A DNA stretch of 64,000 nt. It comes from Sulfobacillus sp. (GTDB lineage Bacteria; Bacillota; Sulfobacillia; Sulfobacillales; Sulfobacillaceae). The notes under the pieces were generated by a model, which worked only from the letters and a program-made list of their open reading frames with translations, did no database searches and was not told the DNA's origin. Location: the NCBI GenBank assembly GCA_027309085.1, contig DAIDDL010000009.1, positions 1-64,000 on the forward strand, written 5' to 3'. How positions within the stretch are numbered: the first letter of the stretch is position 1; each line of letters opens with the position of its first letter. A program made the position numbers and the translations under genes. This document shows positions 1 through 12,966 of the stretch, one piece after another.

Positions 1-660
<660 letters not shown>

Positions 661-714
661 TCTCCTGTAAAGTTGTGAGGGTCCGGACGCGCACGCGTCC
701 GCAGCCTCTGTTCT

Positions 715-834
715 TTGTCGGTGCACATCGCCGCGAGTGTTGACCCGTTCCCATGCCGCACACGGTCGTCCCCCTCGCGTACGCTGGCGGTACTGGATCC
801 GTAGGGATCTGGGAGACCCAGACTGTGCCGACAA
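715..834 (+). rRNA. rrf: 5S ribosomal RNA
   Basis: Terminal helix formed by TTGTCGGTGC (715-724) and GTGCCGACAA (825-834). The core ACCCGTTCCCATGCCG and the TGGCGGTACT segment match helices III and IV of bacterial 5S. The usual GAACACGGAAGTTAAG segment reads GCACACGGTCGTCCCC here, so this copy departs from consensus at normally conserved loop positions. Position directly after 23S and before a terminator supports the call. Confidence 0.88.
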
Positions 835-844
835 TCCCTTTCGC

Positions 845-871
845 GCCCTCTCCCTCGGGAGAGGGCTTTTT
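845..871 (+). terminator. Rho-independent terminator of the rRNA operon
   Basis: A perfect 10-bp stem (845-854 with 857-866, arms GCCCTCTCCC and GGGAGAGGGC), a 2-nt loop and five T follow the 5S gene by about 10 nt. Confidence 0.92.
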
Positions 872-919
872 GGTATAGCCCACAGGGCCTATGATTCAAA
901 AAGCGCGACAGGAAGATGT

Positions 920-975
920 CGTTTTACTTGGTGAAACCATTCACAGGGATAATAATCGAGGGCCATATGGCCCTT
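920..975 (+). promoter_or_regulatory. Composite upstream element, copy 1 (CRP/FNR-like dyad plus CCATATGG palindrome)
   Basis: A dyad GTGA-N6-TCAC lies at 931-944 in the context TTGGTGAAACCATTCACAG. It resembles CRP/FNR-family operators. Exactly 18 nt downstream lies the palindrome CCATATGG (963-970) inside GGGCCATATGGCCC. The same arrangement, with the same 18-nt gap, occurs upstream of the lbpA2 operon at 9986-10025. It sits about 190-230 nt before the DsrE2-like gene. Whether it is a protein operator, an RNA leader or both is not known. Confidence 0.6.
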
Positions 976-1160
976 TCGCCTTGAGCCGAATGTTCCTAGT
1001 CTTAAAACGGTCAGATAGAAAATAATAAATATAGAGTCTTTGCTGCGTTGCTCGATTCCCGTTTTTGGCGCGCATCGCGCAATGCCCTGCCCACCTGCCA
1101 CAGCCACACCTGCGGGTGCTGGCGCCTCTCACAAATTGCGCTCACAAAAGGAGATATCTG

Positions 1161-1541
1161 ATGAAGAAAGTTGCCATTATCTCAAGTTCAGGAGACATTG
1201 AAGGGGCCTACAAAACCCTTAACGTCGCGAACGCCGCGGCGGCCATGGATGCGGAGGTTACGGTGTTCTGCACCTTTGGCGGTCTAAAAATGCTCGAGAA
1301 AGTGCCGCAATACGCTATGAGTCCAGAGATGGAGCCGTTCAAGGAGCGCGCTGCAGCAATGCCCAGCGTGGGGGAACTGCGCACGATGGCCTTGGACCTC
1401 GGCGTTAAATTCATTGCCTGCCAGATGACGATGGACCTCATGGGCATCACTCTTGACCAGTTGATGGACAACATTGTCACGGCGGGAGCCGCAACCTTTA
1501 TGGAAGACGCCATGGATGCCGACAGCACGGTAACCTTCTAA
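1161..1541 (+). CDS. dsrE2: DsrE2-like sulfurtransferase-family protein
   Basis: This is a 126-residue protein of the DsrE/DsrF family. The motif IACQMTMDLMGI carries Cys87, the presumed persulfide-bearing residue, and the tail GAATFMEDAMDADSTVTF is typical of DsrE2 proteins. Such proteins carry sulfane sulfur between donors such as rhodanese or TusA and oxidation enzymes in the cytoplasm. ATG at 1161 is preceded by AAAGGAGAT at good spacing; the longer frame upstream has no better start. It is followed after 41 nt by a DUF1641 gene, a pairing seen near sulfide:quinone oxidoreductase genes in sulfur oxidisers. No quinone oxidoreductase is in this window. Confidence 0.85.
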   Translation: MKKVAIISSSGDIEGAYKTLNVANAAAAMDAEVTVFCTFGGLKMLEKVPQYAMSPEMEPFKERAAAMPSVGELRTMALDLGVKFIACQMTMDLMGITLDQLMDNIVTAGAATFMEDAMDADSTVTF

Positions 1542-1582
1542 CCGAATCTGGACCACACTGTGCAACGAGGGGAGAGTGAAAA

Positions 1583-2677
1583 ATGCCTGGGGCTCGTGGA
1601 GAAACGAAATCCTCCTGGGATGGGCTGGAACTCAGGGAGCGCTGGACCAGTGACCTGTTGGAAACGGTGACCGACCAGGCTGACGATCCCGACGTCATTG
1701 ACGGGGCGGGGAAACTGCTGGAGATTCTCGGCGTATTGAATTCGAGTGGCATGCTGGATATTGTCGTGACCTTGATGCAGTTTGCCGGGCTGATGCCGGA
1801 TGCTGGCGAGCCGTCGGACATTGTGGATACTTTGTGGGCATTCTATGACACCCATGCGGGGTGGGTGAAGGATTTGCAGGGAATTCAGGCTGACAAACTA
1901 GCAATGCTCACCAAAATGCTGAGTGACCCGGCTGTCGCGCTGCCGGCGGCGTCATTGCTGAACAGCGCCACCCAAGCAGGCACGTGGAAAATGATGGCGG
2001 ACGTGGCGGAAAACACCGAAGTGCTTGCGGCCTTGCCGAAGCTGTTAGCCCTCGTGGGCAAGCTGCAGGACGAGGGCCTGGTTGACAGCTTGCTGCTCGC
2101 ACTGGATTACATGGACGCGTTGCCGGACATTGTCAATACGCCGGAAGGGGTTGACCGTCTGGCGGACTGGCTCCAGCAGTCTAAGATTATCGAGACGGCA
2201 GCGGCCACCAACTGGGGAAATCTGGTGGCAGTCACCCGGATGGCCAGCCAAGAACCGGTGCGGAAGCTGATGGAACTGGGCATGGGTTTGTTGGAGGACG
2301 TGCCCTCGGACATTCTTGCCGACATGGTCAGTCTGATAGCCCAAGGCATTGAAACCGTGACGGCGCTGGATGGGTGGAGCTTGGCGCAAGACGTCATGAA
2401 AATGGCTGTGCAGGTCAAAACAGCCGTCGACTGGGCTCAGCTCTTTCCGGGTGTGACAGACGCCGGTGGGCATCTGAATTGGCAGGGCATTGTGCAAGTG
2501 ATTCAAAATGTGGCAGCCGACACTCAGCACAAGACATCCGCGTTTGGTGGAATGAAGGGAATGATGGCCCTGATGAGGGATCCTGACGTGCAAAAGGGCC
2601 TGCATTTTCTTACCAGCCTCACTGGACAGCTATCCCACTTTGCCATGTCCCCGCGCGGCTCGGAGGCATTATCCTAG
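1583..2677 (+). CDS. DUF1641 domain protein
   Basis: This 364-residue protein has a C-terminal segment FGGMKGMMALMRDPDVQKGL, the hallmark of DUF1641, a family often encoded beside sulfide:quinone oxidoreductases or formate dehydrogenases. The rest is helical and repetitive, with repeated leucine/alanine-rich stretches and no transmembrane segment or cofactor motif. ATG at 1583 follows a GAGGGGAG Shine-Dalgarno. It is co-transcribed with the DsrE2-like gene. Its biochemical role is unknown; a scaffold or adaptor for a membrane-associated quinone reductase is an inference. The protein is longer than the minimal domain, so the N-terminal two thirds are specific to this lineage or highly diverged. 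Confidence 0.75.
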   Translation: MPGARGETKSSWDGLELRERWTSDLLETVTDQADDPDVIDGAGKLLEILGVLNSSGMLDIVVTLMQFAGLMPDAGEPSDIVDTLWAFYDTHAGWVKDLQGIQADKLAMLTKMLSDPAVALPAASLLNSATQAGTWKMMADVAENTEVLAALPKLLALVGKLQDEGLVDSLLLALDYMDALPDIVNTPEGVDRLADWLQQSKIIETAAATNWGNLVAVTRMASQEPVRKLMELGMGLLEDVPSDILADMVSLIAQGIETVTALDGWSLAQDVMKMAVQVKTAVDWAQLFPGVTDAGGHLNWQGIVQVIQNVAADTQHKTSAFGGMKGMMALMRDPDVQKGLHFLTSLTGQLSHFAMSPRGSEALS

Positions 2678-2685
2678 ACTTCAGC

Positions 2686-2740
2686 AGCGCATGCCAAAAG
2701 GCGCGCACCAAGATCAAGGGCGCGCCTTTTGGCATGCGCT
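2686..2740. terminator. Long perfect inverted repeat between convergent operons
   Basis: A 21-bp perfect stem (2686-2706 with 2720-2740) and a 13-nt loop lie 9 nt after the DUF1641 stop. Neither side has a clear T run (plus side reads GGCTCTTCTCTC), so it is a transcript-end or processing hairpin rather than a textbook intrinsic terminator. Confidence 0.6.
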
Positions 2741-3052
2741 GGCTCTTCTCTCTCTCCGTCGGCGCGAGGCACAAATCGGGCGGCGGGTCCCCGCGCACCT
2801 TTTTATTGCTGTTGAGGCGGCCTCCTCCCGATTGCAAAGACATGATTTCGGCGAGACCGCTTCAAGGCAGCCGCCCGGGAGCGGCATCCTGAAAGTATGG
2901 GGGACCCGTCCGGCGTGTTGTCTGGTGACGGGTGTCCCCCGTCCGGTTGGGAGAATAGCAAGGCGGGTGATAAACCAAGCTGCCATGGCGGCTGCAAGCC
3001 AGCTCGGCAGCTTGGTCTGCACGGAGCAATTCTCCCAGACGGTGGCAAAGAG
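2741..3052. other. Intergenic stretch with two strong secondary structures, no gene
   Basis: No convincing reading frame. Two foldable units lie in tandem. Unit one pairs 2899-2909 with 2928-2940 (GGGGGACCCGT against ACGGGTGTCCCCC, with a GT bulge) and includes the direct repeat CCCGTCCGG at 2905 and 2938. Unit two has an outer stem GGGAGAAT/ATTCTCCC (2949-2956 with 3029-3036) enclosing an 11-bp perfect stem ACCAAGCTGCC/GGCAGCTTGGT (2974-2984 with 3006-3016). It lies just past the 3' end of the minus-strand sHdr operon. I recognise no known riboswitch consensus on either strand. Confidence 0.45.
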
Positions 3053-3313
3053 TCAGACAGCAAACCCGTGCGTTTTCAAGAGATCTAGCGCAGTCGCCCG
3101 GTCAATCACCCCGACATGCACCACCTGGTCATTGATAATGGTGCTGGGCACACTGCGGATATACAGTTTCACCGCCAACTCGCGGCCTTCCAGAGTCCCG
3201 ACGTCGACTTCCCGCACCGTGAATCCATATTGCGCGCTGAGCGCTTTCCACTGGCGGATCGTGGCGGGACAGGTGCGGCACCACTGGGAGGTCGCGACAG
3301 TTACCTCGGACAT
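3053..3313 (-). CDS. Thioredoxin/glutaredoxin-like protein
   Basis: The 86-residue product has a redox motif WCRTCP with cysteines 12 and 15, and a VPSTII segment with the cis-proline usual in thioredoxin folds. It has no signal peptide, so it is cytoplasmic. It is the last gene of the sHdr operon, 13 nt after the lbpA stop. A likely role is keeping thiols of the sulfur carriers or of lipoate reduced; that role is inferred from context. ATG at 3313 has the GGAGGGGACGGAA ribosome site upstream. Confidence 0.82.
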   Translation of the reverse strand: MSEVTVATSQWCRTCPATIRQWKALSAQYGFTVREVDVGTLEGRELAVKLYIRSVPSTIINDQVVHVGVIDRATALDLLKTHGFAV

Positions 3314-3326
3314 TTCCGTCCCCTCC

Positions 3327-3767
3327 TTAACTGCAGCGCATGCACTGGATTTTGTCCCGGATAATTTTCTCGCGGTACTGGCGCAGCGCTTCAGTTCCAG
3401 TCACCAGGTGACTCCAGTCCTGGTCAGGCTGGTACTGCACTTTCGCGATCCACGCCCCCCCGTAAGGGTCGATATTCAACAGAGCCGGCTCTGTCAGCAG
3501 GGCCGCGTTGGATTCGACAATCGTCCCCGAAAGAGGGCACACGAGAGGACCTGCCCACTTGCCGCTCTCCAGCGAGGCCAGAGATTTCCCCTTCAGCACG
3601 GCAACACCGACACGCTTGGGGCGGACAAAGAGAATCCGGCCCGAAAGGGTCTGTGCCGGATCCGTCATCCCCACGACGGCAATATCTCCTTCGCGGCGCA
3701 CCCACACATTGTTCTCGACATCGTAATAGAGATGTTCGGGTATATCGCACCCTTGAATTTCTGCCAT
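3327..3767 (-). CDS. lbpA1: Lipoate-binding protein of the sHdr system (GcvH-like), first copy
   Basis: The 146-residue GcvH-fold protein has the lipoylation motif ESGKW, with Lys70 as the modified residue. The segment TDPAQTLSGRILFVRPKRVG is characteristic of sHdr-associated LbpA rather than glycine-cleavage H protein, and no gcvP or gcvT is nearby. In sHdr organisms lipoylated LbpA is essential for sulfur oxidation and is thought to carry the sulfur substrate or electrons to the complex. The C-terminus ends CMRCS, giving a C-x2-C pair. A paralogue is encoded at 10151. Start ATG follows AAGGAGGTCC. Confidence 0.9.
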   Translation of the reverse strand: MAEIQGCDIPEHLYYDVENNVWVRREGDIAVVGMTDPAQTLSGRILFVRPKRVGVAVLKGKSLASLESGKWAGPLVCPLSGTIVESNAALLTEPALLNIDPYGGAWIAKVQYQPDQDWSHLVTGTEALRQYREKIIRDKIQCMRCS

Positions 3768-3802
3768 GATGGACCTCCTTCGTGAACATGGCGGTGAGGT
3801 GC

Positions 3803-4711
3803 TTACCGGATAGCCGGCTCAGACAGAAACTGCCGGATAAGCCCCATGGCGTCAGACTCCATGTCGCCAACGTGCAGCTCCTCGGGGCGGTGTCCGAAGG
3901 CGATTCCAATCAGCTGGGTGTAATACATCACCGGAAGTTGTGCGCTCTCACCGACTGTGCCTATAGCCCGAAACTGCAAGGCGTCCAGTCCGCCAGCGCA
4001 CTTCGGGCACATCAGAGCCAGGACATCGGCGCCGCTCGATTTGGCCGTTGAGAGAATGCGGCCCGTTAACCGGCCCGAAATTTTCTCGTCGGACAGCAGA
4101 TTTTTGCCGCCGCAGCACGTCGTTTCGGCGCGGTGTTCGACGACGGTGGCGCCGAGCGCAGCCATCAGGTCGTGCATAAAGTGAGGATGTTCGGTGTCCT
4201 CTCCCGCAATTTGCACCGAGCTCAGCATTTTGGCAGGCCGCTGGTACAAGCAGCCATAATAGGGTGCCACCCGCAGCCCGGTTAAGGGCACCCGCACCCG
4301 CTTGGCAATCTCGTCGAGGCCAATCACATTGACCAGATACTCCAGGGTATTGCGGACAGTGGGCTGCTCCAGGATCTGTGGCTCATCGGCCGCTTTCAGC
4401 ATGGACTGGATCTGGTCAAGATGGACTCCCCCTTGTTTCACGGCGTAGGCTGTGCGGGACAGTTCGTGGTAACAGACGTTGCACGATACCATGACTTCGG
4501 TCTCGCCCTGATTGATGAGATGGGCCAGATTGCGGGCGGGAAGGAAGTGGCTTTTCAATCCTTCCCCTTTCAGTTCGCCTGCTCCGCAACAGGAGTAGTC
4601 CTCCACGTCCACGAGGGTCATGCCTAAGTCCTGGGCAATAACCCTCGTGCTGACATCGTAGGCGCGGTCAATGGTTTTGAGAGAGCAGCCGGGAAAGTAT
4701 GCCGTTTGCAT
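3803..4711 (-). CDS. hdrB2: sHdrB2: heterodisulfide reductase subunit B-like
   Basis: The product has about 302 residues and two CCG domains. The first comprises FPGC near residue 9, SCCG near 42 and C-x2-C near 78. The second comprises YYGC near 153, TCCGG near 196 and MCPKC near 230. In HdrB these bind non-cubane [4Fe-4S] clusters at the site of disulfide chemistry. The first-listed ATG at 4714 lies only 4 nt from AGGAGG, so the ATG at 4711 (MQTAYFPGC) is preferred. It lies between hdrC2 and lbpA1, as in the conserved sHdr order. Confidence 0.9.
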   Translation of the reverse strand: MQTAYFPGCSLKTIDRAYDVSTRVIAQDLGMTLVDVEDYSCCGAGELKGEGLKSHFLPARNLAHLINQGETEVMVSCNVCYHELSRTAYAVKQGGVHLDQIQSMLKAADEPQILEQPTVRNTLEYLVNVIGLDEIAKRVRVPLTGLRVAPYYGCLYQRPAKMLSSVQIAGEDTEHPHFMHDLMAALGATVVEHRAETTCCGGKNLLSDEKISGRLTGRILSTAKSSGADVLALMCPKCAGGLDALQFRAIGTVGESAQLPVMYYTQLIGIAFGHRPEELHVGDMESDAMGLIRQFLSEPAIR

Positions 4712-4765
4712 CATGAAGCCTCCTTTTGATTGGATGGGGGAAAACACGGTCCGCGGTCCTGGCGG

Positions 4766-5461
4766 TTAAGTTTGGCCAGATTCCATCAGAACGGACCGGC
4801 TGCGGTTCCAGTGCCGGGGGCGGCCGATTAACAATGTTTTCAGGGCGCGGCCATCTTTCAGCATCCTGATGGCGGCTTGACGCAGGTCGGGACCGAACAG
4901 TTCCTTCTGCCGTCCAAGTTTGCTCAGGAATTCGGCCTGCAGCCGTGGCAGGCTGAGCCGCCCGTAAGTTTCCAACTGGTGGCGGTAGGCCTCGTGATTG
5001 GCTAGATAGGCCTGATCCATCTTTTCCGGCACCTGCTTTCGCAGCCACTGTCCGATGGATTCGATAACCTCCGCCGTGTTGACCTCTTTGGGGCAGTGAT
5101 TGGTGCAGATATAGCAGCCCACACAGCGCCAGATGATATCGGCATTCTTGATCAAGTCGTCCTTGCGTCCCACCCGCACCCAGTAAATGAACTGCCGGGG
5201 ATTGAAACCCGGCACCTCGTGGGCTACGGTGCAGCCTGCGGTGCACATCCCGCACTGAATGCAGTTGTCGATGCTTTCCCCGATTGCACTCGCGCGCACA
5301 TCATCCCAAGAGTCCAAATCACGTTCGGAATGCACCCGGGTCTTGAGCATGGTGTTCCAGCGGCCGGAAATATCAATCCCATCCATGACCAGATTGTCCT
5401 CTTCCATAATCTGGTCGTCCTGCAGCAGGGAGCGTTCAATAATGCCAGAGCCTTTGGCCAT
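4766..5461 (-). CDS. hdrC2: sHdrC2: heterodisulfide reductase subunit C-like iron-sulfur protein
   Basis: The 231-residue protein has two [4Fe-4S] motifs: CIQCGMCTAGC near residues 67-77 and CVGCYICTNHC near 113-123. The second cluster set is followed by the typical P-x-E-V segment. HdrC relays electrons between HdrB and the flavin subunit HdrA. An AAGGAGGTGACCCCCT ribosome site precedes the ATG. The gene lies between hdrH and hdrB2 in the same operon. Confidence 0.9.
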   Translation of the reverse strand: MAKGSGIIERSLLQDDQIMEEDNLVMDGIDISGRWNTMLKTRVHSERDLDSWDDVRASAIGESIDNCIQCGMCTAGCTVAHEVPGFNPRQFIYWVRVGRKDDLIKNADIIWRCVGCYICTNHCPKEVNTAEVIESIGQWLRKQVPEKMDQAYLANHEAYRHQLETYGRLSLPRLQAEFLSKLGRQKELFGPDLRQAAIRMLKDGRALKTLLIGRPRHWNRSRSVLMESGQT

Positions 5462-5485
5462 AGGGGGTCACCTCCTTCAAAGTCG

Positions 5486-6298
5486 TCAAGATTGCTCCAT
5501 CCATGAGTCGGGCGCTTCCACAGGGACCCCAGTGGGGACAGCTTGCGGGGGGATGGCGAGCCCGAGAAGATAGCTGACTACCCCCAGCACTGTGGGGATG
5601 GTGGAAAAAATGGATTTGGACGTCGTAAAGTACATCTTGTACAGGTAGTCTGCGTACAGATAGGCCAGCACCAAGTCAGTGGAATAGACGCCCCAGCGGT
5701 GAAGACCGTGATCCTTCAGCATCTCGCCGACACCTTGGAGGCGCATGAACAGCTCCTCGTAATTTGCGCCGTAGGCGTGGAAGCGGTCCTTGCCGTTCAG
5801 TCCCAGCTGGTTGGTGAACTCCATCAGGTACGGCAAGGCGCCCGTCGCGGTTTTCCACGAATACACCCACTGCGGACCAAGCGGGTAGCGTCTGGGCGAG
5901 TAAAAATGCAAAAATTCAATAGCGAGATCATGAGCCTGCTCCTTGGAGACCATCGGCAGACTCATGCCCAGCGCCCGGATTTGGTCATCGACGTTGTCGT
6001 CCATTTCGAGCAAGGTGCTGAGATACACCTTGAGCTGACCCAGAGGCATTTGGGGTTCAATGGCAGGCAGCGCCCGCCGCCAGCTGCGCAGGCGCCGCAA
6101 GGCGCCTGCCCACTGGGCATCGGTGGTCATGGCTATGGACAGGGGATTGGCAACCTGGTGCAGCAGCCGGGAGGTCTGGTTCAACTCCTGGAGCGTCTCG
6201 TCTAAGGGGATCTGCTCCAGATTTTCCTTGACACTGCGCCATGTTTCTTCCATTCCGGGACTTTTTAGGCGGTCCAGGAAGTCATCATACTCGCTCAT
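5486..6298 (-). CDS. hdrH: sHdrH-like conserved protein of the sHdr operon
   Basis: The 270-residue protein is helical and has no cofactor motif I can identify. A hydrophobic stretch near residues 225-248 (TIPTVLGVVSYLLGLAIPP) could be a membrane anchor or a buried helix. Its position between hdrA and hdrC2 matches the hypothetical gene called shdrH in described sHdr clusters. Its ATG overlaps the hdrA stop by 4 nt, which implies translational coupling and a stoichiometric role. The function is unknown; membrane attachment of the otherwise soluble complex is one possibility. Confidence 0.7.
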   Translation of the reverse strand: MSEYDDFLDRLKSPGMEETWRSVKENLEQIPLDETLQELNQTSRLLHQVANPLSIAMTTDAQWAGALRRLRSWRRALPAIEPQMPLGQLKVYLSTLLEMDDNVDDQIRALGMSLPMVSKEQAHDLAIEFLHFYSPRRYPLGPQWVYSWKTATGALPYLMEFTNQLGLNGKDRFHAYGANYEELFMRLQGVGEMLKDHGLHRWGVYSTDLVLAYLYADYLYKMYFTTSKSIFSTIPTVLGVVSYLLGLAIPPQAVPTGVPVEAPDSWMEQS

Positions 6299-7341
6299 AC
6301 GACCACCTTCGTTTTGAGGTACTGCATCACGGCCAGACTGGCCACATCTCCTTCGGCAATGGCATCCTCAATGGCTTTGGGGCCGCTGGCGCTGCCCGCC
6401 ACGAACACCCCGGGGCGGCTGGTGAGACTGGCATTGCGCATTGGCTCCGATTGTTGGACGAAGCCGTGCGGCTCCAAATCGACATGGAATTTTTGAGACA
6501 GCAGGCGGGTGCCTTGACTGGGTTCCATGCCTGCGGCCAGCACCACCAGGTCAAAGGGCCATTCGAAAGGTCCCCGAACCAGGGTGTCTTCTCCCTTCAG
6601 CACTGGCTGCCCGGCTTTTTGTGTGACCTCGGCAATCCTGCCCTTGACATAAACCACCCCGGATTCCTCTTGGGACCGCCAGTAAAGCGTGTCTTCCCAT
6701 AGCCCGTAAGTGCGCACGTCCATGTAGAACATGCTGATTCGGGCCTTTGGCAGCTGCTCCCGGATCTCAATGGACTGTTTGGCCGACACTGCGCAACAAA
6801 CCCGAGAGCAATAGGTATTGCCGACCTGGCGGTCCCGTGACCCCACGCAGTAAATGAAGGCCACGGATTGCGGCACTTCGCCGTTGGAGGGGCGGCGCAC
6901 GGGACCCTTGGCAAACATTTCTTCAAGTTCGGCGCCGGTGATCACGTCGGGAAACAGACCGTAACCATATTTTCCGTCGCGGCGGGGATCGAAGTGGTCA
7001 AATCCTGTGGCCAGGACCACCGCCTGGGCTTGCAGTTCGTGCGGGTGGGAACCTTCAAGCTGCACGCGGAATCCTTCCTGGTCCTCTTCCACCGCCCCGA
7101 TGCTCGCGCTGGTGACAACGGTGACGTGAGGATTGTTCTGAACAGCTCCGGCCAGGCGTGCTACGAGGGCGGGGCCGCTGCTGAAGTCAGGCATGAGCAC
7201 CTGATACTGGTGCTGTGCGACGGCTCCCCCCAGGACGTCATGCTGTTCGACTAACGTCACATCCAAGCCGAAATTTCCCAGGGTAGCCGCCGCCTGAAGT
7301 CCTGCCGGGCCCCCTCCGATGACGATGACTGAATTGGACAT
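6295..7341 (-). CDS. hdrA: sHdrA: flavoprotein subunit of the sHdr complex
   Basis: The 348-residue protein begins with an FAD dinucleotide-binding motif IGGGPAGLQAA at residues 6-16. It also has the HdrA iron-sulfur region CVGSR followed by YCSRVCC, and a C-terminal GVFVAGSASGPKAIEDAIAEG FAD segment. It is about half the size of methanogen HdrA, as expected for sHdrA, which lacks the extra ferredoxin domains. ATG at 7341 follows AAGGAGGTTGGAG; the longer frame upstream overlaps hdrB1 and is not used. In sulfur oxidisers sHdr runs in the oxidative direction toward sulfite with NAD or quinone-linked acceptors; that directionality comes from the family. Confidence 0.9.
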   Translation of the reverse strand: MSNSVIVIGGGPAGLQAAATLGNFGLDVTLVEQHDVLGGAVAQHQYQVLMPDFSSGPALVARLAGAVQNNPHVTVVTSASIGAVEEDQEGFRVQLEGSHPHELQAQAVVLATGFDHFDPRRDGKYGYGLFPDVITGAELEEMFAKGPVRRPSNGEVPQSVAFIYCVGSRDRQVGNTYCSRVCCAVSAKQSIEIREQLPKARISMFYMDVRTYGLWEDTLYWRSQEESGVVYVKGRIAEVTQKAGQPVLKGEDTLVRGPFEWPFDLVVLAAGMEPSQGTRLLSQKFHVDLEPHGFVQQSEPMRNASLTSRPGVFVAGSASGPKAIEDAIAEGDVASLAVMQYLKTKVVV

Positions 7342-7363
7342 CTCCAACCTCCTTGTTTTGGGG

Positions 7364-8593
7364 CTAAACGGGCTGTTCGACCGGAGGGATGTACAGCTGG
7401 TCCGGTTCCTTGCCAGCCCGCAGTTCTTCGAGATAGGCTTCGTAGGCATCCTTCGAGGCGCGCCAGTCGATGCCCATTTTATCCAGAAGTTTCTGCCATC
7501 CCGATGTGTGCCACTGGATTTGAACGACCTTATAAGGGTCGGCGCCCGCGGCCAGGGCGGCAAACTGAACATCCGCAATCACCGGCAAGTCGTAATTGTA
7601 GCCGTGCGCCTTGCCGATCCATTGGTTTTTATCCAGGGTCGTGGTGCATCCCGTGTCCTGGGTAATGGCGACGTCCGAGTGGGCTTCTTCGACCATTACC
7701 TTGATCTTCCTCTCCAGGGAAAATGAGCGGGAGAATTCGCGTTCGGTCAGAATGTGGCGGAAGCCAAATCCGCAGCAGTCGTACCATGTGGAATAGTCCG
7801 CTACCTGGGCGCCGAGTTCCAGAAGAATCGCCGTGGTGGGGGCCGGCCGCTCCCCGCCGTAAACCGCCGGGTCGTAGATCACGTCTTCCGGAACCAGTTT
7901 CCACACATGGCAGGCCGGGTGCACGGTGGTGACAATATTGGAAACGTCGTATACCCGCATGGCAGCCACACGGTCGCGCAAGACGTGGAGCCACTCGCTG
8001 TAATGCACAATTTCCTCGGGAATGACCAGTTCCCGCCCGACCTTGTGCATAATGCGGCGGACTTCGTCCCGCAGGTCCTTGTGTTCGATTAGCAAGTTGC
8101 GCATCTCTTTGTAGTTGCCAAACGAGGTGCCGCAGTGGATGAGCGGAAAGTAGCCGGTCTCGTAGGCGCGGTGCCAGTTTCTCACCGCCACACTGGCCAG
8201 CGCCACCAGATTGGAGGTGCCGGACCCATGATAATTCCAGGCAGTGCAGCTGGTCTGGTGCGTCTCATCCAGGTATTCGAGACCGAGCTTGTTCATAAAC
8301 CACATGATGCTGGTCGGATAGCCGGGAATATTGCCGCACTGCCCACATGACTTGTGGTGCCACAGCTTGTTGGTGGGAATCCTCTTGGTGCGTCCCAACA
8401 GGGTCTCCACGGTGATGGGCTGGTTTTCCTCGGTAATGTGAATCACCTTGACCTCGCCCTGCGCTTCCAGTTCCGCGAGTTCTTCGCGCGGGTCGGGCTT
8501 CTGATTTTTGATCAGGGCGCGTTTGTCGACCGTTTTGGTCACGAATTCCCATCCCGTTGTCTTAATGCTGCTGTCGATCGTGTTTGAGGCCAT
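7364..8593 (-). CDS. hdrB1: sHdrB1: heterodisulfide reductase subunit B-like, long form
   Basis: The 409-residue protein has CCG-type motifs: CGQCGNIPGYP near residue 85-95, a TSCTAW segment, HCGTS, YDCCGFGFRH and DTGCTTTLDKNQ. An N-terminal extension of about 75 residues without cysteines precedes the first motif, making it longer than HdrB2. HdrB1 and HdrB2 together form the two catalytic B subunits of the sHdr complex. The gene lies between hdrC1 and hdrA, 21-22 nt from each, with a GGAGGAACAATATGG start context. Confidence 0.88.
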   Translation of the reverse strand: MASNTIDSSIKTTGWEFVTKTVDKRALIKNQKPDPREELAELEAQGEVKVIHITEENQPITVETLLGRTKRIPTNKLWHHKSCGQCGNIPGYPTSIMWFMNKLGLEYLDETHQTSCTAWNYHGSGTSNLVALASVAVRNWHRAYETGYFPLIHCGTSFGNYKEMRNLLIEHKDLRDEVRRIMHKVGRELVIPEEIVHYSEWLHVLRDRVAAMRVYDVSNIVTTVHPACHVWKLVPEDVIYDPAVYGGERPAPTTAILLELGAQVADYSTWYDCCGFGFRHILTEREFSRSFSLERKIKVMVEEAHSDVAITQDTGCTTTLDKNQWIGKAHGYNYDLPVIADVQFAALAAGADPYKVVQIQWHTSGWQKLLDKMGIDWRASKDAYEAYLEELRAGKEPDQLYIPPVEQPV

Positions 8594-8614
8594 ATTGTTC
8601 CTCCATTTCTGGGA

Positions 8615-9328
8615 TTAACGGGCGGATTCCACCATATCCCGGAGATCTTCCACCATGTCCGCCACAACTTCATAGAGATTGGGATCGATTTCCTCAATGA
8701 GGCGGAATACGCCGGTCTCTTCATAGATGCTGTACAGCTCGTAAGAAGTTTCCGGGGAGACCCGCCAGGCTGAGGTGGTCACCTGCAGTGTGTAGACAGG
8801 GATAGCCTTGCGCTTAATCGCCAAATCGGTGGAACTCCAGGGGATTTTCGGGCCCCAGTCGGGAAAGAAGTCGGGCTGGATCATATCGGGGGTCAGCTGA
8901 TTGCCAATGGACAGCACTTTCAGCAACACCCGGCCATAAGGTTTGAGCAAGCGGTGGACCGCCTCCATCCCCCGCCAGACGGCGACCTCGCGCATGATCA
9001 TGACGAGACCTCCCGGAGAGTTGTGAAACGGGCAGCGCATGGCGCAGGTGTAGCACTGGGCGCATGCCCAAATATATTCATCCATCATGCCCTTGACAGC
9101 TTCAGCGTCACCGGACAACACGGTCTGCACCACGATCCGGGGCGAATAATCGAAAAACCTGTGTGAGGGGCACGACCCGCTGCAGACCCCGCAATTGAGG
9201 CAGCCGTGGATCACTTCTTCATAGCGGAGGTCGCTCTGAATGGCGTCCAGCAGGCTCTGGGCGTCCTGCTGGCCCACGTCGTCCGGATTGAGACGCAGAT
9301 GGGTGACAGTGTCTTTATCGTGGCTCAT
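8615..9328 (-). CDS. hdrC1: sHdrC1: heterodisulfide reductase subunit C-like iron-sulfur protein
   Basis: The 237-residue protein has two [4Fe-4S] motifs, CLNCGVCSGSCP near residues 43-54 and CAQCYTCAMRCP near 89-100. It starts the C1-B1-A-H-C2-B2 series. The C-terminal third lacks cysteines and has conserved tryptophans. A start with AGGGAGGTGACC upstream is clear. It would relay electrons within the sHdr complex in the cytoplasm. Confidence 0.9.
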   Translation of the reverse strand: MSHDKDTVTHLRLNPDDVGQQDAQSLLDAIQSDLRYEEVIHGCLNCGVCSGSCPSHRFFDYSPRIVVQTVLSGDAEAVKGMMDEYIWACAQCYTCAMRCPFHNSPGGLVMIMREVAVWRGMEAVHRLLKPYGRVLLKVLSIGNQLTPDMIQPDFFPDWGPKIPWSSTDLAIKRKAIPVYTLQVTTSAWRVSPETSYELYSIYEETGVFRLIEEIDPNLYEVVADMVEDLRDMVESAR

Positions 9329-9373
9329 GGATGGTCACCTCCCTAAAACAGAATTTGTTGCGCCGCGAGGCAG

Positions 9374-9742
9374 TTAGCTGAGATAAACGGTGCGGTCAGC
9401 CGTCAGCAGCAGCTCGTGAAAATCTGCGGCTCCGATCCACTCCAAGGGCCAAGCGACCCCGCCGGGGTCCAGGTGCACCAGCGGAAGACTCAGCCGGCAT
9501 CCGTACAGGAGCACCGACTGGTCTTCCGCTATGCGGATAAAATCGGTCAGCCGCTTGCCGCTGCCATCAAGAGCGGCAGTATTCTCGGCGAATCCTGGCT
9601 CAAAAATAGACAGCCCGGTCTGGGTAAAAATAATGGCCGCTTCATGGTCGAGCGCTCGGGCCACGGTCGCCATGAAGAAGACGGTGAAGCAGCGTTCGGG
9701 GTTCTCCCTTCCCCGGGTTTGCACATACACGAATCGCGCCAT
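9374..9742 (-). CDS. DsrE-family sulfur carrier, first gene of the sHdr operon
   Basis: The 122-residue product has the DsrE fold signature MARFVYVQTRGRENPERC at the start and a conserved cysteine, Cys82, in LLYGCRLSL. It resembles the DsrE protein encoded at 10869 in layout but is clearly diverged. It is the promoter-proximal gene of the minus-strand operon, 45 nt before hdrC1. It probably accepts sulfane sulfur and delivers it to sHdr or LbpA. An AAAGGAT ribosome site precedes the ATG. Confidence 0.8.
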   Translation of the reverse strand: MARFVYVQTRGRENPERCFTVFFMATVARALDHEAAIIFTQTGLSIFEPGFAENTAALDGSGKRLTDFIRIAEDQSVLLYGCRLSLPLVHLDPGGVAWPLEWIGAADFHELLLTADRTVYLS

Positions 9743-10150
9743 GTTAGTCCCGATCCTTTCGTGTCAGCGTCAAACGGGCTGGTTCTTTAGAGCCAACGGC
9801 TGATTGCAGTCATCCTAGCACCTATTGAATAGCGATTAAATAATCATTGCGCATGAATTGCGGATGCATTTTACTGAAGTGACTACAAAGTACAGCGACG
9901 AAACGTCGTTTACACGGCGTGCTATAATTTAGGCGCACTATTCCGAGGTTTCGTAAAAACGACAGTAATTCGGCGTTTTTACCTGGTGAAATAACTCACA
10001 ATACATGCGAGACAGGGCCATATGGTCCTGATGTCGAGGTCCATTCGGTCCTATTCTGTTGGGGCTTTAGGGCCAACAATGACGGTAGTGCATTGCCAGG
10101 GGCTGAAACAGTGCGATCCCATCCCAAGGCAGTGCGCGGAAGGGAGAACT
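9743..10150. promoter_or_regulatory. Divergent regulatory region between the two sulfur operons
   Basis: About 400 nt without a gene. On the plus strand an extended -10 (TGCTATAAT, 9920-9928) has no good -35 partner, suggesting an activator-dependent promoter. A small palindrome CGACGAAACGTCG lies at 9896-9908, a hairpin GTAAAAACG/CGTTTTTAC at 9953-9982, and the composite element described separately. The minus strand is AT-rich near 9830-9860, the expected place for the sHdr promoter, but I cannot fix hexamers there. Confidence 0.55.
9974..10030 (+). promoter_or_regulatory. Composite upstream element, copy 2 (CRP/FNR-like dyad plus CCATATGG palindrome)
   Basis: GTGA-N6-TCAC at 9986-9999 in the context CTGGTGAAATAACTCACAA, then 18 nt, then CCATATGG at 10018-10025 within GGGCCATATGGTCC. 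The flanks also match copy 1 at 920-975: both have CGTTTT(T)AC directly before the dyad. It lies about 125-165 nt before lbpA2, downstream of the extended -10 at 9920-9928, so it would be in the transcript or act as a roadblock or second promoter element. Confidence 0.6.
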
Positions 10151-10585
10151 ATGGCGGCTGAATCCGAGTGCAATATTCCTGAAGACCGGTATTACTGGAT
10201 AGACAAACACGTATGGGCTAGACCTGTAGGGGACCTGGTAGAGGTGGGAGTGACAGACCCGGCTCAGGGATTGGCCGGAAAGATGCTGGTGTGCCGCATC
10301 AAGCGCGTAGGCCGTGAGCTGAAGCGTGGGGCCAGCGCAGCGACACTGGAAAGCGGCAAGTGGGTCGGTGGCGTCTCTACCCCGCTGTCCGGGGTGATCG
10401 CGGAGGTGAATGAGGGCCCCGAAAAAGATCCGGAAGAGTTAAATCGCGACCCCTATGGGGCCTGGCTATTTCGCATGACACCCACCCACTGGGCGGAAGA
10501 CGTCAAGGAACTGGTCACGGGCGCGTCCGGAGTGCAGGAATACCGCGCCAGAATTGCTCAAGAGGGCATACAGTGCGGACATTAA
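10151..10585 (+). CDS. lbpA2: Lipoate-binding protein of the sHdr system (GcvH-like), second copy
   Basis: The 144-residue protein is collinear with LbpA1 and carries the same ESGKW motif with Lys70. It shares TDPAQGLAGKMLVCRIKRVG and the ending QCGH, where LbpA1 ends with CMRCS. ATG at 10151 follows GAAGGGAGAACT; the upstream in-frame extension lies in the regulatory region and is rejected. It is the first gene of a sulfur-carrier operon with tusA, dsrE and a lipoate ligase, which supports a substrate-carrier role in sulfur oxidation. Confidence 0.9.
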   Translation: MAAESECNIPEDRYYWIDKHVWARPVGDLVEVGVTDPAQGLAGKMLVCRIKRVGRELKRGASAATLESGKWVGGVSTPLSGVIAEVNEGPEKDPEELNRDPYGAWLFRMTPTHWAEDVKELVTGASGVQEYRARIAQEGIQCGH

Positions 10586-10622: not shown

Positions 10623-10847
10623 ATGGAGCAGGTAGTGGATGTCAGGGGGCTGTCGTGTCCGATGCCGATCATCCGGACAAAGAAGGCGATGGACCAGATT
10701 GAGGCAGGGGACCATTTGGTGGTGCTGGCCACGGATCCGGGTGCCGTGGCCGACTTCCAGGCATGGACACGGCGGACGGGGCATAAGCTGGTCTCGTCGG
10801 AGCAGGTTGACCAGGAGTTTCACTTCCGCTTGGAGAAAGTCAAGTAA
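10623..10847 (+). CDS. tusA: TusA sulfur carrier protein
   Basis: The 74-residue protein has the TusA motif DVRGLSCPMPIIRTKKAM near its start. Cys12 of the C-P-x-P motif is the persulfide site. TusA passes sulfane sulfur between rhodanese/DsrE partners and sHdr in dissimilatory sulfur oxidation. An alternative ATG at 10602 adds seven residues; the one at 10623 fits the family length and has AAAGGA upstream. It lies 37 nt after lbpA2 and 21 nt before dsrE. Confidence 0.92.
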   Translation: MEQVVDVRGLSCPMPIIRTKKAMDQIEAGDHLVVLATDPGAVADFQAWTRRTGHKLVSSEQVDQEFHFRLEKVK

Positions 10848-10868: not shown

Positions 10869-11240
10869 ATGGAGAACAAAAAGATCTTGTACATCCAGAC
10901 CTCGGGTCCGGACACTCCAGCCCGCATGGCCTCGCCGTTTTTTCTGGCCACGGCTGGGTGCCTTCTGGACCATGAGGTGACGATGCTCTTTACCATGCAC
11001 GGAACCCAGCTTATGAAAAAAGGCGTGGCGGAACAGGTGTTTGTCAAGGAAGGAGGGCAGACGCTGCAGTACTTTATCGACCAGGCGTTGGACGCCGGCG
11101 TGAAGTTTTTGGTGTGCACCCCCAGTCTGGATTTGAATGACATGACAAAAGATGACTTGATTGAAGCCGTCTCCGAGGTGGTAGGGGGCACATTCGTCAA
11201 CGAAGAGGCCCTGGCGTCTGATCTGGTAGTCTCTTTCTAG
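10869..11240 (+). CDS. dsrE: DsrE-family sulfur carrier
   Basis: The 123-residue cytoplasmic protein has Cys83 in FLVCTPSLDL as the presumed sulfur-binding residue, with the opening KKILYIQTSGPDTPARMASP typical of DsrE-like proteins in tusA-dsrE-hdr loci. It is the likely exchange partner of TusA. A GGACAAGGGGGAATCGCTG leader with a purine-rich site precedes the ATG. The operon continues with the lipoate ligase 32 nt downstream. Confidence 0.85.
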   Translation: MENKKILYIQTSGPDTPARMASPFFLATAGCLLDHEVTMLFTMHGTQLMKKGVAEQVFVKEGGQTLQYFIDQALDAGVKFLVCTPSLDLNDMTKDDLIEAVSEVVGGTFVNEEALASDLVVSF

Positions 11241-11272: not shown

Positions 11273-12355
11273 ATGCGCGTGGTCAATTTAGGCACGGTCT
11301 CAGTGCCCCGGTCTCTAGCGGTCTTTCACGCGGTGGCCCAAATGGCGGGGGCGGCAGATGAGATGACACTGGTGTTCGCGACACCTCAAAGCCCGTTCGT
11401 TTCGGTTGGCTATCACCAGCTGGCCAGCCGGGAGCTCAACGTGGCCTACTGCCAGGCCCACGATATTCCCATTGCGCGGAGATTGGTGGGCGGCGGCGCC
11501 GTGCTTCTGGACCAAAACCAAGTGTTTTGGCACCTGATTATGCCGGGGGCCCACGCGGCGGTCAAAGACCTGTATGCGGCGCTGCTGCCGGCTCCCGTGG
11601 CGGCTTACCAGCGCATGGGCATCCGCGCGTCTATCCGCCCCCTGAACGATATCGTGGTCGGAGATCAGAAGATTGGCGGGACGGGAGCCGCCACCATCGG
11701 CCAGAGTCTGCTCTTTGTGGGCAGCCTGATGTATGATTTCGACCGCGAGCTGATGGCGCAGGTGCTCCGCGTGCCGTCGGAGAAGTTCCGGGACAAGACC
11801 GTGCAGGCTCTCGGCGCGTACATGACGACAATGGCGGAGCAGCTGGGCGGGGCCTTGCCTGCGCGGGACGAGGCCGCCCAAATTTTAAGCGAGGAATTCG
11901 CCCGGATGCTCGACACCCCGGCGCGTCATGAGAGCCTGCGCGAGGATGAGGAAGAGCAGGTTACACGGTTTGAACGCCGCCTCTTTGACCCGGCTTTCGT
12001 CTTTCAGAACGAGGGCTGGACGGTGCCGGGAACAAAAATTGCGGGGGGCATCTACCTTTACGAAGGGCTGTTCAAGTCGCCGACAGGGCTGGTGCGGGTG
12101 ATTTGGCGCGAGCGCGAGGGATTGATTGAGAATACCTGGCTGGGGGGCGACTTTCTGATTGAGCCGGCCAGCGCCCTGCAGCGCGTGCAAGATGCGCTCA
12201 ACCGCCAGGCTGTGGAGCCGGGGGAACTGTCACAGGTGCTGCACAGAATTTTTGTCGAGGAACAGGTGAAAGGCATCTCTGCCGAAGATGTGGTGCAGGC
12301 ATTTGCGAACCGCCTCAGTCTGGATACGCTGTCAGTGTCCGGAGTGGAACCCTAA
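11273..12355 (+). CDS. lplA: Lipoate-protein ligase (LplA with C-terminal LplB-like domain)
   Basis: The 360-residue protein has the ligase motifs RRLVGGGAVLLD near residues 63-74 and NDIVVGDQKIGGTGAATIG near 123-141, where Lys in the DQKIGG segment binds the lipoyl-adenylate. A C-terminal domain of about 100 residues (from EGWTVPGTKIAGG) resembles LplB/accessory domains. This matches sLpl(AB) ligases linked to sHdr clusters, which lipoylate LbpA specifically. Companion radical-SAM LipS1/LipS2 genes are not in this window. ATG follows AAAAGGAGGACACCTGG. Confidence 0.88.
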   Translation: MRVVNLGTVSVPRSLAVFHAVAQMAGAADEMTLVFATPQSPFVSVGYHQLASRELNVAYCQAHDIPIARRLVGGGAVLLDQNQVFWHLIMPGAHAAVKDLYAALLPAPVAAYQRMGIRASIRPLNDIVVGDQKIGGTGAATIGQSLLFVGSLMYDFDRELMAQVLRVPSEKFRDKTVQALGAYMTTMAEQLGGALPARDEAAQILSEEFARMLDTPARHESLREDEEEQVTRFERRLFDPAFVFQNEGWTVPGTKIAGGIYLYEGLFKSPTGLVRVIWREREGLIENTWLGGDFLIEPASALQRVQDALNRQAVEPGELSQVLHRIFVEEQVKGISAEDVVQAFANRLSLDTLSVSGVEP

Positions 12356-12369
12356 AGGGGGCCTGAGTC

Positions 12370-12966
12370 ATGCCGTCTGGACTGCGTGATACGATTGTGC
12401 TGTACCTGACCGACCACCTGGCGGTGACGACGGAGGAACTGCAGCAGACCCTGGGAGTGTCGCGCCGGCATATTCAACGAACCCTGCACCAATTGATTGC
12501 GGAGGGGCTGGTGAGCATGTCCCTGATGCCGGGATCCCGCCACACCGGGGAATACCGCCTGATTCCGGGCGAAAGCGCGGCGCTGCAGCCGGTCAATCGC
12601 CTGCTCACAGCGATTCAGGAGGCAGGGGGAGCCTCCTTGCGCGACCGAATTCTCGAAATTTTTATTGATGACTATTATCGCGGCCGGATGGATCACTCCC
12701 CTGAGGAGGTGTCCCGCGACGAGTCGTTGAAGATGAACTGGAGCAAAACGCCTAACGGCTGGTGGATTACCATGCAGCGGTGCCCATTTCCCTACTGGCG
12801 CGGGACACAATCCATCTGTGAGGCGGAGGCCCGCGCATTTGCGCACCATCTTGGCGCTCCTGTGATTCATCTTTCAGAAGGCGAGAAAGGGGTGTGCCAG
12901 TTTTTTATCCCTCTGCGCACGGACATGCGGCCAGACCAGGAAGGGGACGGCGATGACGACAAGTGA
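12370..12966 (+). CDS. Winged-helix regulator with SufR-like iron-sulfur cysteine set
   Basis: The 198-residue product has an N-terminal helix-turn-helix (residues 8-50, TTEELQQTLGVSRRHIQRTL as recognition region). The C-terminal domain holds Cys138, Cys150 and Cys176 (C-x11-C-x25-C) with LGAPV between the second and third. That layout is typical of SufR-type repressors that bind a [4Fe-4S] cluster. It follows lplA by 14 nt and overlaps the next gene, so it is the in-operon candidate regulator of the sulfur genes, sensing Fe-S status, redox or sulfur load. Target sites are not known. Confidence 0.7.
   Translation: MPSGLRDTIVLYLTDHLAVTTEELQQTLGVSRRHIQRTLHQLIAEGLVSMSLMPGSRHTGEYRLIPGESAALQPVNRLLTAIQEAGGASLRDRILEIFIDDYYRGRMDHSPEEVSRDESLKMNWSKTPNGWWITMQRCPFPYWRGTQSICEAEARAFAHHLGAPVIHLSEGEKGVCQFFIPLRTDMRPDQEGDGDDDK

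Follow-up and report, generated by a model that had tools for sequence, protein, structure and literature searches.

DevR promoters are built from tandem boxes, the proximal of which overlaps the -35 region, and promoters of the nirB and narG type combine a protein of the CRP/FNR family with a NarL-family regulator. In Streptomyces coelicolor the DevR ortholog is OsdR, for which PMC5069765 gives the consensus AGGGCCGATCGGCCCT and predicted targets comprising universal stress proteins, CoA disulfide reductase, protoporphyrinogen oxidase and hemerythrin; Cmr, of the CRP/FNR family, acts at the dosR promoter (PMC5499769). Here we describe a composite element that precedes two sulfur-gene operons, dsrE2-DUF1641 and lbpA2-tusA-dsrE-lplA, in a 64,000-nucleotide stretch of Sulfobacillus sp. 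DNA (contig DAIDDL010000009.1, positions 1 to 64,000; the window). Each copy consists of a dyad, GTGA-N6-TCAC, and two further palindromes, P1 and P2. Judging from the sequences, the element is probably a DNA promoter module and not an RNA, in which a DevR-type regulator would occupy P1 and P2 as tandem operators and a CRP-like protein would bind the dyad.

A preliminary description had reported the same pattern at both places, a dyad preceded by CGTTTTAC at dsrE2 and by CGTTTTTAC at lbpA2 and followed at exactly 18 nucleotides (nt) by a conserved palindrome, with no third copy in the window. The pattern and both positions were recovered, and the whole 4.49-Mb genome holds exactly two composite copies at up to three mismatches, both of them in the window. 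The 18-nt spacer is correct as the distance from TCAC to CCATATGG, but not to GGGCC, where the spacer is a constant 15 nt in both copies and a pattern allowing 16-20 nt has no match. The palindrome already described, GGGCCATATGGYCC, is P1, with GGGCCATATGG at 960-970 and 10015-10025, but P2, centred 23 bp past it, had been overlooked. The 14 bp of P1 form a perfect palindrome at dsrE2, and at lbpA2 one pair is asymmetric; P2 is similarly palindromic at lbpA2 and weak at dsrE2. The distance from dyad to P2, 52 bp, amounts to about five helical turns. Taken singly, the parts are weakly above chance in the window: the dyad occurs twice against 0.6 expected (7 of 100 shuffles reach two), and GGGCCATATGG at one mismatch occurs five times against 2.3 expected (4 of 100 shuffles reach five). 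The composite, with a uniform-base expectation of about 5e-7 per window and with its conservation in the genus, is far above chance.

Protein searches covered 42 genomes of the order, with G000 denoting the genome under study, and the genus set of eight includes Sulfobacillus thermotolerans Kr1 (G027) and S. benefaciens AMDSBA1 (G021). Upstream DNA was read at the best 12 lbpA2 loci (33 of the 42 genomes have some match) and at all nine dsrE2 loci; the dsrE2 locus of G023, with 11 nt of upstream DNA before the contig end, was left out. Dyad, P1 (centred +29.0 bp from the dyad centre) and P2 (+52.0) precede lbpA2 in all eight genus genomes, and the conserved blocks in the alignment of these promoters are the dyad, P1, P2 and AA[CG]AATGAC, plus an inverted repeat, P0. 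The dyad and P boxes also precede dsrE2 at all five genus loci with upstream DNA, at +29.0/+52.0 in G000 and G027 and at +28 and +51 or +52 in G022, G025 and G026, where P1 has diverged. Outside the genus, no dyad occurs within 330 bp upstream of lbpA2 (0/4 loci) or dsrE2 (0/3 loci), so the expected presence of the motif before orthologous operons holds within the genus but, for the dyad, not beyond it. G013 and G015 have tandem P boxes upstream of lbpA2, G011 has weak ones, and in G008 none were seen there. A sequence-only profile built from the 13 composites, which match it by construction at 52-76 bits, found the full composite nowhere else in the 42 genomes of the order (next match 23.1 bits), and among 398 genomes of the phylum G000 alone scored high, with two others at about 20 bits; both scans used stricter filters, which lose some weak matches. 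The sulfur regulon proposed earlier is thus borne out to the extent that the full composite was found nowhere but at the promoters of lbpA2 and dsrE2, but P boxes alone mark a wider, redox-looking set.

In sequence, P1 and P2 are similar to the DevR/OsdR operator. The palindrome form GGGNC-N4-GNCCC is shared, being AGGGCCATATGGYCCT here and AGGGCCGATCGGCCCT in PMC5069765, whereas the centre is ATAT or ATTC here and GATC there. As in the DevR/DosR and OsdR systems of Mycobacterium and Streptomyces, a DevR-like regulator occurs with a kinase, and the kinds of neighbouring genes in relatives are similar; unlike those systems, the target here is lipoate-dependent sulfur oxidation, a CRP-like dyad lies at a fixed distance, and the organism is an acidophilic Sulfobacillus. 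The best solved relative of the DevR-like regulator of G000 is DevR itself (3c3w, 1.7e-44), KTVKHYVS aligning with KTVKNYVS, and its gene adjoins that of a GAF-HisKA_3 kinase. Weak matches to the composite profile fall within 5 kb of DevR-like genes at 10 of 67 distinct places against 0.33 expected, in 10 genomes, six genera and one family (Poisson 3e-12, relatedness ignored). The 67 places derive from 71 rows, 52 of which span both box centres; one row (G023:C2) is P1 of the G023 lbpA2 promoter read from the opposite strand. Within the devSR region of relatives, boxes stand 5' of the kinase gene (G036) or between devR and the next gene (G016, G018 and G020). At four loci from several genera (L254, L259, L271 and L277), a conserved open reading frame (ORF) with [QH]VDP.[LM]TD[DE]EFLRLFEKG lies 3' of tandem P boxes by devSR.

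Other genes near P boxes, named from their translations as are all genes outside the window for which no Pfam or PDB match is cited, are largely redox-related in appearance. P boxes outside ORFs of at least 120 amino acids lie near cytochrome b-type respiratory genes in G000, G025, G026 and G027; G011 has a box pair in such a context, but inside an upstream-extended ORF. Boxes also lie near a molybdopterin-oxidoreductase-like ORF in G021 and G024 (and in G023, where this context falls at a contig end), near a hemerythrin-like gene with a PAS protein gene after it in G021 and G023, and near a LuxR-type regulator in G026, while in relatives CydA-like, universal-stress-protein-like and CoA-disulfide-reductase-like ORFs have box pairs upstream. 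At loci L177 and L178, a dehydrogenase-like gene is separated from hemerythrin-like and PAS genes by a region with three P-like boxes, spaced 22-23 bp.

In all 13 composites a -10-like xAnAAT hexamer starts 30-32 nt past the P2 centre. Since many of these are close orthologs, the offset was retested on tandem pairs outside the genus, drawn from 27 places (22 best-match profile loci and five around DevR-like genes), of which three lacked a pair and 24 were used. Offset 31 ranked first of 401 both on the hit strand (z 4.1) and on the opposite one (z 4.6); three orientation schemes were tried, and the z of 7.1 on the contig strand, which has no biological meaning, is not relied on. With this hexamer as the predicted -10, P2 would be centred near -42.5, P1 near -65.5 and the dyad near -94.5 (at dsrE2 of G000 each lies 1 bp further from the predicted start). 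The tandem boxes of the DevR architecture are present, and the position of the proximal box rests on the predicted -10. Within the 13 composites, offset 31 ranks second of 401, which counts against this placement: the best mean -10 score is at offset -23, inside P1, as would suit a class II CRP promoter with its dyad at about -41.5 and P1 merely holding the -10 (TATGGY). The 29-bp spacing would also fit such a promoter, but TATGGY is missing from the dsrE2 promoters of G022, G025, G026 and G027 and from the lbpA2 promoter of G027, and tandem P-box pairs exist without the dyad, so we consider this arrangement very improbable.

A -10 directly after P2 (TATTCT or TAGTCT in G000), which would place P1 at -42.5, was dropped, as the 13 promoters share the hexamer at 30-32 nt. 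The same two sequences bear on another explanation, that P1 and P2 bind some other LuxR/NarL-type protein or are repressor sites around a more upstream start. P boxes in G021 and G026 do adjoin regulator genes, of the PAS-LuxR and LuxR type respectively (the PAS protein of G021 ends in a LuxR helix-turn-helix, HTH); against this, TATTCT/TAGTCT is not kept over the 13 promoters in the mean by offset, and the linkage in relatives is to DevR-like genes. We rate this explanation as unlikely.

The likeness to DevR/OsdR boxes, the linkage to DevR-like genes in relatives and the -10-like hexamer together lead us to read the element as a two-protein promoter. P1 and P2 would be tandem operators of a DevR/OsdR-type response regulator of the NarL/FixJ family, probably activating rather than repressing and perhaps in response to oxygen or redox state. 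P2 would overlap the -35 region of a promoter that has just a -10-like hexamer, about 31 nt past the P2 centre, so that transcription of both operons would need the phosphorylated DevR-like regulator; P1 may serve as a helper distal box, and a second dimer, most likely of the CRP family (or the operon-encoded SufR-like protein considered below), would co-activate from the dyad. The two-protein operator put forward in the preliminary description is supported in form, and the palindrome that it could not account for is best read as a DevR/OsdR-type box, found also without the dyad at other promoters. Such a promoter would share with those of nirB and narG, and with the Cmr-dosR case, the meeting of CRP/FNR and NarL/FixJ families at one promoter, but would differ in having the NarL-type boxes proximal, the CRP-like site upstream and sulfur oxidation genes as targets.

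Several observations weigh against this reading. The p-value of the linkage ignores relatedness, as stated, and the list of DevR-like genes behind it (81 genes, E <= 1e-22) is wider than the true orthologs. In G000 the DevR-like gene is carried by a different contig, and the surrounding 10 kb contain no strong P box; G021, G025 and G027 show the same situation, so the linkage stems from other genera. DevR-like genes occur in all 42 genomes, making co-occurrence uninformative, and further NarL/LuxR proteins are present, with 28 loosely scored candidates in G000, one of them at E <= 1e-22. The single-box pattern GGNCCATNNGGNCC exceeds its reversed control moderately, 52 versus 21 in G000 and 247 versus 156 in 11 genomes; given this modest excess and the many boxes inside ORFs (34 loci examined), the box lists were not treated as a regulon. 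A pair pattern of GC positions without the AT core was discarded, because in 25 of 42 genomes, G000 included (110 versus 160), it did not exceed its reversed control. P2 is degenerate in six of the eight lbpA2 copies (score 11) and in dsrE2 (7-10.5). As to the dyad, the CRP-type RET proteins of the genus fall into two helix types, neither of which was seen in all genomes, no CRP-type protein was seen in G022 (61% complete), and the dyad, which would have indicated autoregulation there, is upstream of none of 11 CRP-type loci (two RESVSL ORFs were left out of this count).

An FNR site has TTGAT-N4-ATCAA half-sites, and the protein carries iron-sulfur (Fe-S) cysteines. The GTGA/TCAC half-sites of the dyad do not fit an FNR site, and the CRP-family ORF of G000 has no cysteine. 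The CRP consensus, TGTGA-N6-TCACA in PMC5499769, is matched at 9 of 10 positions by both copies (GGTGA-N6-TCACA); the dyad differs from CRP sites in its fixed 29-bp link to a DevR-type box, and a CRP-family protein with the RET..R helix is present as candidate regulator. Among 13 CRP-type ORFs examined, 11 from ten genomes have the CRP-like helix RET[VI][TS]R and two have RESVSL. The CRP/FNR-family site proposed earlier is plausible in this light, but no single type was seen in every genome and a SufR-like protein offers an alternative.

This protein, an HTH protein with three cysteines encoded 3' of lplA, was found in 9 of the 42 genomes, the eight of the genus, all dyad-bearing, and G008; its gene is in every case on the lbpA2 strand and no more than 2.5 kb downstream of lbpA2, and in all nine the HTH core GVSRRH is identical and three cysteines align (the cysteine pattern was used in picking the ORFs). 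Given this distribution it may bind the dyad or P0. The P boxes being DevR-type as before, the dyad would then be the autoregulatory operator of an Fe-S or persulfide sensor in place of CRP, as is suggested also by G011, G013 and G015, which lack both the SufR-like protein and the lbpA2 dyad despite having CRP-type proteins. The match to the CRP consensus speaks against this, as does G008, where the protein occurs although lbpA2 lacks the upstream dyad; G008 does share the CGTTTTTACCT block, a better fit to P0. We regard this assignment of the dyad as conceivable, though doubtful. P0 is a candidate SufR-like operator, and the protein is possibly a persulfide or Fe-S sensor. The half-sites of P0, AAACGNC and GNCGTTT, are 7-8 nt apart in the genus, and in G008 AAACGTC and GTCGTTT are 17 nt apart, about one turn more (by eye). 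The lbpA2 promoters of G021, G022, G024, G025 and G026 contain an extra AAA[AG]CGTC copy between the dyad and P1 (equivalent to 10000-10014 of the window). Tentatively, the two-protein promoter might be extended to three inputs on one helical face, with a DevR-type two-component system sensing oxygen or redox state at P1/P2, a protein of the CRP type at the dyad and, at P0, the three-cysteine HTH protein as Fe-S or persulfide sensor, gating lipoate-dependent sulfur oxidation within an undescribed DevR regulon of the Sulfobacillus order.

The structured leader RNA that had been offered as the other option, or a riboswitch, is scarcely credible. P1 could form a 5-bp hairpin, but the covariation term is +0.86 and the P1 pairs never vary, the only Rfam match at gathering scores in 600-10400 is the 5S rRNA, P2 is reversed in the dsrE2 copy, and the boxes lie 5' of the predicted start.

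In the literature searched, outside which subscription papers lie, we found no account of the control of sulfur oxidation in bioleaching Firmicutes; a comparative Sulfobacillus genome paper (PMC4378227) has no occurrence of DosR, DevR, Crp, response regulator or transcription factor, and nine papers that match the literal GGGCCATATGG are, by title, on other subjects. In Hyphomicrobium, sHdr-type sulfur oxidation genes are also regulated, there by sHdrR and SoxR, repressors of the ArsR type (PMC12423496). A DevR-type box at these promoters would link a dormancy and hypoxia regulator of actinobacteria to lithotrophic energy metabolism, and suggests that sulfur oxidation may be tied to redox control in this acid-mine bacterium; the element supplies exact sites, predicted starts and candidate proteins for testing.

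Table. Promoter elements and genes of the two sulfur operons (window coordinates)
Feature	Position	Strand	Remark
CGTTTTAC motif 5' of dsrE2 dyad	920..927	+	read directly
CRP-like dyad GTGAAACCATTCAC, dsrE2 promoter	931..944	+	kept in 5/5 evaluable genus dsrE2 promoters
P1 GGGCCATATGGCCC, distal DevR/OsdR-type box, dsrE2 promoter	960..973	+	centre 29.0 bp past dyad centre
P2 GAGCCGAATGTTCC, weaker proximal box, reverse orientation, dsrE2 promoter	983..996	+	centre 23.0 bp past P1
Predicted -10 AATAAT, dsrE2 promoter; start near 1033	1021..1026	+	prediction only
dsrE2 (DsrE family)	1161..1541	+	Pfam DrsE_2 6e-29; under NCBIfam DsrE2 cut-off
DUF1641 protein	1583..2677	+	Pfam PF07849
P0 inverted repeat AA[AG]CGNC-N7/8-GNCGNTTT, lbpA2 promoter	9955..9980	+	alignment read by eye; readable in 8/8 genus lbpA2 promoters
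CRP-like dyad GTGAAATAACTCAC, lbpA2 promoter	9986..9999	+	in 8/8 genus genomes
P1 GGGCCATATGGTCC, distal DevR/OsdR-type box, lbpA2 promoter	10015..10028	+	
P2 GGTCCATTCGGTCC, proximal DevR/OsdR-type box, lbpA2 promoter	10038..10051	+	centre 23.0 bp past P1
Predicted -10 AACAAT, lbpA2 promoter; start near 10087	10075..10080	+	AA[CG]AATGAC in 8/8 genus lbpA2 promoters
lbpA2 (GcvH-like lipoate-binding protein)	10151..10585	+	Pfam GCV_H 2e-26
tusA	10623..10847	+	Pfam TusA 3e-25
dsrE-like	10869..11240	+	Pfam DsrE
lplA (lipoate-protein ligase)	11273..12355	+	Pfam LplA-B_cat 7e-36
SufR-like HTH protein, three conserved Cys, candidate co-regulator, 3' of lplA	12370..12966	+	translation reading; no family model above cut-off

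The window (G000:C172) opens in 23S/5S rRNA genes, the 5S being an Rfam match, and continues with dsrE2-DUF1641 on the plus strand, an sHdr-type cluster on the minus strand and lbpA2-tusA-dsrE-lplA-HTH on the plus strand. The 23S-5S rRNA unit is directly 5' of the dsrE2 operon (window 1-1161), and Rfam shows the same arrangement in G025 and G026. At the dsrE2 locus of G027 no rRNA unit of this kind was found; at that of G022 a 5S-like tail is visible.

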